Origin: Chitinivibrio alkaliphilus ACht1
GTDB taxonomy: Bacteria > Fibrobacterota > Chitinivibrionia > Chitinivibrionales > Chitinivibrionaceae
DNA: 56,528 nucleotides
Reading direction: 5' to 3'
NCBI RefSeq assembly: GCF_000474745.1
Contig: NZ_ASJR01000015.1
Span: 1 to 56,528 of the forward strand
Notes under the pieces: generated by a model
What the model saw: the letters and a program-made list of their open reading frames with translations, nothing else
What the model was told of the DNA's origin: nothing
The model's database searches: none
Made by a program: the position numbers and the translations under genes
Shown: piece by piece, positions 9,017 to 50,154 of the stretch
Numbering within the stretch: the stretch's first letter is position 1
Layout of the letters: every line of letters starts with the position of its first letter

Positions 9017-9107
9017 GGAGAGATGTCCGAGTCCGGCTGAAGGAGCACGCCTGGAAAGTGTGTGTACACCTCGTGTACCGAGGGTTCGAATCCCTCTCTC
9101 TCCGCCA
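9017..9107 (+). tRNA. tRNA-Ser (anticodon GGA)
   Basis: Class II tRNA with encoded CCA. The acceptor arm GGAGAGA (9017-9023) pairs with TCTCTCC (9097-9103). The anticodon stem CACGC/GTGTG encloses loop CTGGAAA with anticodon GGA at 9053-9055. A long variable arm (GTACACCTCGTGTAC) and the T-loop GGTTCGAATCC follow. It reads UCC and UCU serine codons. The SRP RNA follows within six bases, so the two RNAs are probably co-transcribed. Confidence 0.97.
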
Positions 9108-9112
9108 TTCAT

Positions 9113-9218
9113 GCGGGTCAGGTCCTGCTCAATGGTTGCGTCGTGAATCCCGCCAGGTCCGGAAGGAAGCAACGGTAAGCGATTGTGACCATGTGACGCA
9201 GAGTGCTTGGCCCCTTTT
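9113..9218 (+). ncRNA. ffs: Signal recognition particle RNA (4.5S-type, small bacterial form)
   Basis: The domain IV hallmark AGGTCCGGAAGGAAGCA is at about 9155-9171, containing the GGAA tetraloop and the asymmetric internal loop bound by Ffh. The flanks form a roughly 100-nt hairpin: GGGTCAGG near the 5' end faces CTTGGCCCC near the 3' end, followed by TTTT. Placement just upstream of dnaX-ybaB-recR matches the arrangement known in many bacteria. The outer limits are estimated from the pairing. Confidence 0.93.
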
Positions 9219-47003: not shown

Positions 47004-48311
47004 CTACCGTTGTATATCAGCTCCCAGGGCATTGAGTCGAAGGTCAATATCTTCGTATCCCCGATGTATTTGTTCGATATTATGAATCACACTGTCTCCT
47101 TCAGCAGAAAGAGCAGCAATAAGCAGGGCCATCCCCGCACGTATATCCGGCGAAGATATTGATGCGCCGGACAGCTTTGCAGGTCCGACAATTACAGCCC
47201 TGTGAGGATCGCAGAGAATAATCTGTGCGCCCATGGAGATAAGGCTGTCTGTAAAGAACAGACGTGATTCAAACATTTTCTCATGGATGAGGCAGGTGCC
47301 TGCCGCTTGGGTTGCCGTAATAAGCATGATAGAGGTAAGATCAGCTGGAAATCCCGGCCACGGTGAGTCGGCTATACGGGGGATAGCTCCGCCCAAATCA
47401 TTCTTAATACGCATATCCTGATTATCTGGTATATGAATCATCCCATTTTCGCAGTCCGTGCTTACGGTAATACCCAATCGACGGAACTGGTAGAGTATCA
47501 GCCCCATTACAGAAAGGTCTACATTTGTAAGGGTTATGTCTGAATTTGTACAAGCAGCCAGCGAGATAAATGACCCTGCTTCAATGTAATCACAGCCCAA
47601 ACGGTGCTGTACCGAATCATACGATTCGGTCCCGTGAATTTTCAGAATATTTGAGCCGATTCCTTCTATTTTTACACCACACTTTTGTAGAAAACGGCAT
47701 AACCCCTGCACGTGGGGTTCACAGGCTGCATTTGTTATGGTGGTAGTGCCCTGTGCTCCCGACGCAGCAATGAGGGCATTTTCTGTGGCGGTAACGGAGG
47801 CCTCATCGAGGTAAATATCTGTTCCAATAAGCCCCTGTGGCGCAGTAAGTATGTAGGTAAAGCATTCATCTCCGCTTTCTGTCATTTTTCGCTGTGAGCT
47901 GATACGTGCACCGAGTTTTTCAAAAACAAGAAAGTGAGTATCAATACGCCGGCGACCAATCCTGTCTCCGCCGGGTTGGGGGATAATTGCTTCTCCTGTT
48001 CGAACCAGCAGGGTCGAGGCAAAGAGGATAGATCCGCGTATTTTCTGAGAGAGTTCAAGGGGAAGGGTTGCTGTACGTATATGATCTGAGTGAATTGTGA
48101 CGGTGTGGTCCTTTGTCTCAATGAGAGCACCAAGATGTGTTGCAATAGCACACATTCCTTCCACGTCTCCAATGGCAGGAACATTGGTAAGAACGGTTTT
48201 TTTCTTCGTCAACAGGGCAGCAGCAATGAGAGGAAGGGCTTCGTTCTTATTTCCGGATATCGCCAGTTTCCCTGAAAGCCGTTTTTTTCCTGTTACCTTA
48301 AATTTACTCAT
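47004..48311 (-). CDS. murA: UDP-N-acetylglucosamine 1-carboxyvinyltransferase, Asp-type active site
   Basis: 435 residues. First committed step of peptidoglycan synthesis, adding enolpyruvate from PEP to UDP-GlcNAc. [20 protein letters not shown] carries the conserved Lys-Asn pair. The active-site loop reads [14 protein letters not shown]: residue 116 is Asp (codon 47964-47966), where E. coli has Cys115, the target of fosfomycin. The rest of the EPT fold is intact, including EASVTATEN and [10 protein letters not shown]. Divergent from guaB and followed by the desaturase gene. Confidence 0.96.
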
Positions 48312-48358: not shown

Positions 48359-48387
48359 TTGAAATGGTTGTTCGTAGAAATTATATT
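48359..48387 (+). promoter_or_regulatory. Promoter of the guaB leader
   Basis: TTGAAA (48359-48364) and TATATT (48382-48387), 17 bases apart, both five of six consensus. A start near 48394 would give a 5' leader of about 245 bases before guaB. Overlaps the murA promoter. Confidence 0.5.
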
Positions 48388-48408
48388 ATGATAGGAATCG
48401 CCTGCTAA
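48380..48408 (-). promoter_or_regulatory. Promoter of murA
   Basis: On the minus strand TTAGCA (48403-48408) and consensus TATAAT (48380-48385) are 17 bases apart, about 70 bases before the murA ATG. Its -10 overlaps that of the opposite guaB promoter. Confidence 0.55.
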
Positions 48409-48423
48409 TTTTGCGAAAAATAA

Positions 48424-48585
48424 CCTATTGCCTCGCGTTGTATGGCGTTTACCGAACAATTTATCCGAGGTAACCGACTCTGTTGCGGGATGCCACGCTG
48501 TCTTGCAGAAGGCTGAACAGAGCAGGCGGAATACCACCATATTAATTATGCGGGATAAACTGATTACTAATGGCGGGGCAATAGG
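48424..48585 (+). ncRNA. Candidate structured leader RNA upstream of guaB
   Basis: The 328-base gap 48312-48639 holds no credible gene but a strong fold. 48424-48436 pairs with 48573-48585 over 13 pairs (one G-U). Inside it, TTTATCC (48460-48466) pairs with GGATAAA (48553-48559), GGTA (48469-48472) with TACC (48532-48535), and CTCTGTT (48478-48484) with AACAGAG (48516-48522). The result is a rod of about 162 nt with internal loops. I cannot match it to a known riboswitch; a 6S-like RNA is possible. On the minus strand the same stem is followed by TTATTTTT, so the direction is not certain. Confidence 0.45.
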
Positions 48586-48639
48586 CCTATATATATCGAT
48601 ACTAGTCACTTTAATATTTTTAACAGATCGTATGGTGTT

Positions 48640-50154
48640 ATGGCAAAAGTAATCTCCGATGTGTCCAGAACGTTTTCCGAATATTTGCTTCTCCCCGGAT
48701 TGACAAAGCGTACAGCTTCTCCGGCGAAGGTGTCTTTATGTACACCAATCTCACGCTATGGTACGGGAGAAACCCCGCGGTTATCTTTGAATATCCCCTT
48801 CGTTTCTGCGTCTATGCAAGCGGTGTCTGGAGTTGATATGGCGACCGCCTTGGCTCGTAAAGGGGGAGCCGCCTTTATTTTTGCCTCGCAGTCCATAGAT
48901 GATCAGGCTGCCATGGTGCGAGCAGTAAAAAAATATAAGGCTGGGTTTGTTCTCAGCGACACCAATGCAACCCCGGATACTCCCTTGTCGGCGGTGTTGG
49001 AGAAGATTGCTCAGACGGGACACTCCACGGTTGCCGTTACTGATGATGGTTCAGCCACAGGTCGTTTTTTAGGGATTGTTACAGATAAGGATTACTGGGT
49101 TAAGGAGGACGATTTATCTCGCCCTGTTTCTGCCTATATGACCCCTGTGGAGAACGTTTATTTAGCCCATTCGGGTGTGTCTCTTCATGAGGCAAATTGC
49201 TTGTTGCGAAAATATCGGAAAGACTGTCTGCCTGTTATTAACGCAGAGGGGCATCTTGATTCTTTGGTATTTCGGAAAGACTTTATTGAACACACGGATA
49301 ATCCTCTTGAACTGATCGATTCTGAGAAACGTTTAATTGCAGCAGCTGGTATTAACACGCACGATTATAAAGAGCGTGTACCTGCTCTTGTTGCGGCGGG
49401 CGTAGATGTTCTGACAATTGATTCTTCTGATGGGTATTCAGAGTATCAGCGTGATTGCGCATTGTGGATTCGAGAAAAATATGGCGACTCCCTTGTTGTG
49501 GGGGGTGGTAATGTTGTTTCGGCCGATGGGTTTCGGTATCTTGCAGAAGAGGCCCAGCTTGACTTTGTAAAAGTTGGGATCGGCGGCGGCTCTATTTGCA
49601 TTACCCGTGAGCAAAAAGGTATTGGCCGTGGCCAGGCATCGGCTGTGCTTGAGGTGGCTGCTGCACGTGATGAATATTATGAAAAGACCGGCGTCTATGT
49701 ACCCATCTGTTCAGATGGGGGCCTCTCCAATGATACGCAAATTATTATTGCTACGGCCATGGGGGCCGATTTTGTCATGATGGGCCGCTATTTTGCCATG
49801 ACCGATGAGTCTCCCACGGAAAAGCTTTCTATTCGCGGTCAACGGTACAAAGCGTACTGGGGAGAAGGGTCAAACCGTGCACGCAATTGGCAGCGGTATA
49901 GCGATGAGAAAAATTCCAGCGGTAAGATGAAGTTTGAAGAGGGGGTTGATGCTTATGTTCCTGCTTCAGGGCCTTTGTCGGAGGTGCTGGATGTTACCTT
50001 GGCAAAACTACGATCTACCATGTGTAATGTGGGGGCGGATAGCCTCAAAGACTTTTCCCAAAAGGCTGTGTTAACACGGATTTCTGAGCAATCCTTTGTA
50101 GAAGGAGGAACTTCCAATGTGGTACAGCTTGACCAAACTCATTCTGAAGGGTAG
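48640..50154 (+). CDS. guaB: IMP dehydrogenase
   Basis: 504 residues. NAD-dependent conversion of IMP to XMP, the entry to guanine nucleotides. TIM-barrel catalytic domain with two inserted CBS domains (about 95-215). Catalytic Cys320 lies in [20 protein letters not shown], and the flap region [17 protein letters not shown] follows. [10 protein letters not shown] and [13 protein letters not shown] are typical. The ribosome site is weak. A long structured leader precedes it. Confidence 0.95.

Follow-up and report, generated by a model that had tools for sequence, protein, structure and literature searches.

The window analyzed here is the whole 56,528-nucleotide stretch of contig NZ_ASJR01000015.1 from Chitinivibrio alkaliphilus ACht1. 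Within it the divergent genes murA and guaB (IMP dehydrogenase) are separated by a gap of 328 bases, in which a preliminary description had placed a structured RNA between a sigma70-type promoter and guaB; gap, stem and promoter were all present. Two readings had been offered for this RNA: a cis-regulatory leader of guaB serving guanine nucleotide synthesis, or a free RNA of the 6S type. 6S RNA, a well-known small RNA, mimics an open promoter and restrains RNA polymerase. The features of the locus are given below, with the parts of the RNA positioned by alignment to the Rfam 6S consensus (RF00013) and to R1, a covariance model derived from 22 Fibrobacterota 6S sequences with the window excluded.

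47004..48311, minus strand: murA, divergent neighbour (start 48311)
48359..48387, plus strand: promoter-like site TTGAAA-17-TATATT; a similar box lies upstream in most relatives
48403..48411, plus strand: alternative extended -10-like element TGCTAATTT, read from its sequence only
48420..48590, plus strand: predicted 6S RNA gene, ends from the R1 match (48419-48591 by Rfam 6S)
48424..48436, plus strand: closing stem, 5' arm CCTATTGCCTCGC, 13 pairs with 48573-48585
48437..48473, plus strand: central bubble, 5' strand, from alignment to R1 and the Rfam 6S consensus
48444..48457, plus strand: predicted pRNA template, start opposite C48457, adjoining base A48458
48447..48451, plus strand: GUUUA, predicted to pair with UAAAC at 48556-48560 as an intra-bubble helix in the unbound RNA
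48474..48529, plus strand: apical arm, outer pairs 48474-48484 with 48521-48529, end hairpin 48498-48501 with 48505-48508
48530..48572, plus strand: central bubble, 3' strand, with conserved ACCA, from the R1 alignment
48573..48585, plus strand: closing stem, 3' arm GCGGGGCAATAGG, followed here by CCTATATATATC
48640..50154, plus strand: guaB (IMP dehydrogenase), downstream of and codirectional with the RNA, ATG at 48640

Folding of the single sequence reproduced the long closing stem reported previously, with 13 pairs, one G-U among them, and 136 bases separating the arms. The fold energy of the plus strand corresponded to z = -3.19, and none of 200 shuffles was equally stable. When the gap was shuffled 300 times with dinucleotide composition preserved, nine of the shuffles contained a helix of at least 13 pairs (G-U allowed) with comparable span; the 13-bp stem by itself is therefore only modestly unusual and could be due to chance, and its significance comes from the comparative evidence. 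The minimum-energy helices of the single sequence differ from the conserved helices; in the conserved form an open central bubble separates the closing stem from the apical arm. Imposing this conserved shape on the window RNA gave -48.0 kcal/mol versus -56.2 for the unconstrained optimum, an energy gap resembling that of its relatives (L111: -49.6 versus -56.9).

At curated thresholds, Rfam matched an SRP RNA and one tRNA in the whole window and nothing else. These two genes lie at 9017-9215, where the tRNA gene comes first and the small SRP RNA gene begins 11 bases after it in the same orientation. A relaxed threshold applied to the murA-guaB gap yielded a full-length plus-strand match to Rfam 6S at 48419-48591, covering model positions 1-187 with 20.2 bits (cut-off 46.4; E of 0.036 in the 349-base stretch searched). 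Matches in the gap to RAGATH-6 and TeloSII_ncR49 were far under their cut-offs and were discarded. R1 matched the gap at 48420-48590 on the plus strand, with 45.8 bits and E = 2.1e-8 within the window. Searched across the 2.59-Mb genome, R1 returned this single plus-strand match (E = 9.8e-7), and no second 6S candidate was found there. The window copy had the lowest R1 score in its own family, 45.8 versus 97-109 bits for the other three, all of which were R1 training sequences. Against E. coli ssrS, R1 gave a weak match of 11.6 bits, spanning the whole length in the correct orientation; an unrelated hairpin scored equally high. A BLASTN search of 100 relatives with the gap sequence returned short chance matches only.

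By its guaB relatives the window was assigned to Fibrobacterota, close to Chitinivibrionia. A search of 150 relatives revealed one full-length Rfam 6S match in most members of the order, with scores above the cut-off in three of 151 genomes (G024, 60.4 bits; G030, 55.4 bits; G023, 49.7 bits). R1 matched 36 of the 40 genomes of the order, nearly always exactly once in each, including genomes outside its training set (G005, G006, G009, G012, G014, G018, G022, G027, G028, G031, G032 and G039). Two 6S-like matches were observed in G036, on two contigs (L133, 453-630, and L152, 297-470), which reflects duplication of the gene or else mixing in the assembly; a contamination value of 6 is listed for this genome. 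On the Fibrobacter side of the phylum (f8, G040-G150), many genomes searched showed no convincing match to Rfam 6S or R1, suggesting that 6S RNA there has been lost or is too divergent to detect.

Gene order around the RNA was examined as well. The RNA is head-to-head with murA in 19 of 33 loci, murA being 73-400 bases upstream on the opposite strand, as it is in the window, and no locus among the 33 shows murA in any other arrangement. This synteny provides independent support. A codirectional guaB follows the RNA in the window and, at distances of 76 and 118 bases respectively, in L132/L031 and L118, all of one family; in another member of that family (L032) guaB is located approximately 2.7 kb downstream of the RNA. 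Outside the family, the RNA was absent from the examined flanks of approximately 30 other Fibrobacterota guaB loci (L033-L062 and others). With the RNA mostly beside murA and guaB linkage confined to one family, guaB is a family-specific neighbour and the RNA is probably a free-standing gene.

Compensatory changes were sought in the closing stem, and all 12 closing-stem pairs of the family were found to covary. In a 33-sequence alignment (A3), 93.2% of cells were paired and 30 of 33 pairs had changed on both sides, figures that are favoured by the fitting of this alignment to the model structure; none of 500 shuffles scored as high, and slid controls reached 38-49%. A MAFFT alignment made without such fitting gave a concordant result (26 of 33 pairs covarying). 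Strong covariation is seen in the family in the closing stem, the central bubble and the apical arm alike. The window RNA forms 27 of the 33 consensus pairs with a closing-stem sequence quite unlike that of its relatives, and its apical loop is shortened. The intra-bubble helix occurs as CUUGA/UCAAG in the order and as GUUUA/UAAAC in the window's family, with 92.7% of cells paired in the order's register. Taken as a whole, the RNA has the architecture of 6S RNA, i.e. a closing stem, a large central bubble and an apical arm within about 160-200 nt.

Known 6S RNAs share pRNA hallmarks, namely GG at positions 5/6, AA at positions 9/10 and a neighbouring A (PMC8414754). The pRNA predicted for the window, 5'-GUUCGGUAAACGCC, has GG at 5/6, AA at 9/10 and an A beside the start. 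The column of the start holds C in 30 of 33 sequences and U in three, with A next in most, and the corresponding pRNA of a relative (G009, L161) reads GUUCGGUCAAAAAA. In B. subtilis the 6S-1 pRNA is 5'-GUUCGGUCAAAACU, started opposite C40 (PMC8876501, PMC12005410), and the first seven bases, GUUCGGU, are common to this proven pRNA and the predicted one. Judged by these features, the 5' strand of the bubble qualifies as a putative pRNA template.

The sigma70 promoter described previously was recovered as TTGAAA-17-TATATT. A TATATT-type box is present in most relatives, lying 6-26 bases ahead of the matched RNA, in agreement with the strand and promoter originally proposed; the window's own box (48382-48387) is somewhat farther from the stem than theirs. 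The alternative element TGCTAATTT would tentatively place the RNA start near 48418. Furthermore, the 6S matches of relatives, with loci set to the match strand, all agree with the plus strand of the window. On the opposite strand a promoter-like site, TTAGCA-17-TATAAT (48380-48408), uses the same AT-rich core as the 6S promoter; divergent transcription of murA and 6S RNA may thus start from -10 boxes that overlap. Downstream, a T-rich tract follows the closing stem in all 32 aligned relatives, whereas the window has CCTATATATATC instead and is alone in lacking a U-run. The missing U-run or terminator suggests read-through into guaB, by which 6S RNA and guaB would share a transcript in this genome.

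A purine-sensing riboswitch or attenuator controlling guaB would show the layout seen here, in which the RNA is codirectional with guaB, a promoter precedes it and no terminator intervenes, yet this reading is extremely unlikely. No riboswitch family matches the window at gathering score, and the earlier failure to recognize a known riboswitch core was borne out by the lack of any cis-regulatory Rfam family in the gap at E up to 10. Moreover, the same RNA recurs across the order mostly by murA and, outside the window's family, not beside guaB, the examined flanks of guaB loci elsewhere in the phylum are without it, the RNA of relatives (including three of the window's own family) ends in its own terminator-like U-run, and what is conserved is characteristic of 6S RNA. 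The proposal of a leader for guanine nucleotide synthesis is not supported.

Loss of function would be compatible with the low score of the window copy, its shortened apical loop and its missing U-run, but a decaying, non-working 6S relic is very unlikely given that the closing stem is perfectly paired despite its altered sequence, that 27 of 33 pairs are retained, that the predicted pRNA template is intact and that the genome has no other 6S RNA. An RNA encoded on the minus strand as a murA leader has next to no probability: the minus strand folds well too (z of -3.43) and its closing stem runs on into TTATTTTT, but R1 and Rfam match the plus strand only, the promoter boxes and U-runs of relatives all orient the RNA divergently from murA, and a U-G pair of the plus-strand closing stem turns into a C-A mismatch.

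The full-length but sub-threshold Rfam match, the R1 match, covariation, the putative pRNA template and synteny all favour the free RNA of the 6S type that had been named as the alternative. The interval 48420-48590 on the plus strand thus very probably encodes a 6S RNA (ssrS type), the only copy detectable in the genome. It is an ordinary 6S gene, not a new guanine-sensing switch, and was previously unlabelled because its sequence has drifted too far for Rfam to call it.

By analogy with the 6S family, whose members are abundant in stationary phase, the rod-shaped RNA would mimic an open promoter, with sigma70/sigmaA holoenzyme binding the central bubble, and the bound polymerase would be kept off DNA promoters under low nutrients. 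On return of NTPs, the polymerase would copy the bubble's 5' strand, with GTP as the first nucleotide, placed opposite C48457. The short pRNA (GUUCGGUAAACG...) would then be made, its synthesis remodelling the RNA and releasing the enzyme. The 3' end of this 6S RNA may be made by processing of the transcript shared with guaB. A single 6S-guaB unit could conceivably couple GTP-started pRNA release to the GTP supply provided by IMP dehydrogenase, with processing choosing between 6S RNA and mRNA, although we consider such coupling rather unlikely.

Recognition of this gene fills a gap in annotation, as 6S RNA of the Chitinivibrionia mostly scores under the Rfam cut-off and nonetheless occurs in 36 of the order's 40 genomes; R1 could serve to annotate 6S RNA in this group. 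A full-text literature search for 6S RNA in Fibrobacter returned nothing beyond passing co-mention. In one paper mentioning both 6S RNA and guaB, the RNA linked to guaB is Yfr1, which is unrelated. The local 6S-guaB gene order appears not to have been described before in the literature searched.

Compared with Rfam 6S/SsrS (RF00013), the window RNA is similar in length, closing stem, bubble, apical arm, pRNA-template motif and occurrence as one copy per genome, and differs in its score under the gathering cut-off, its divergent sequence and its murA/guaB neighbourhood. With B. subtilis 6S-1 (bsrA) it shares the predicted pRNA start GUUCGGU, a start opposite C followed by A, and a helix, predicted here, within the bubble of the free RNA (PMC8876501, PMC12005410), while pRNA bases 8-14 (AAACGCC here versus CAAAACU in 6S-1) and the gene neighbours differ. 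In E. coli a codirectional metabolic gene likewise lies close downstream of ssrS, that gene being fau (ygfA). After purD and purK, the guaB of the window is a further purine gene found adjoining a 6S RNA. Cyanobacterial 6Sa/Yfr7, which is distant in sequence, adjoins purK but lies downstream of it (PMC1242208). In Campylobacter jejuni and Helicobacter pylori, 6S RNA is located directly upstream of purD (PMC3847290), so that a purine gene follows as it does here, although that gene is purD and not guaB, and the RNA there is expressed and pRNA-bearing. The C. jejuni 6S RNA was originally predicted as a purine riboswitch (PMC3847290), which makes the present locus the second at which a 6S RNA was initially taken for a possible purine switch.
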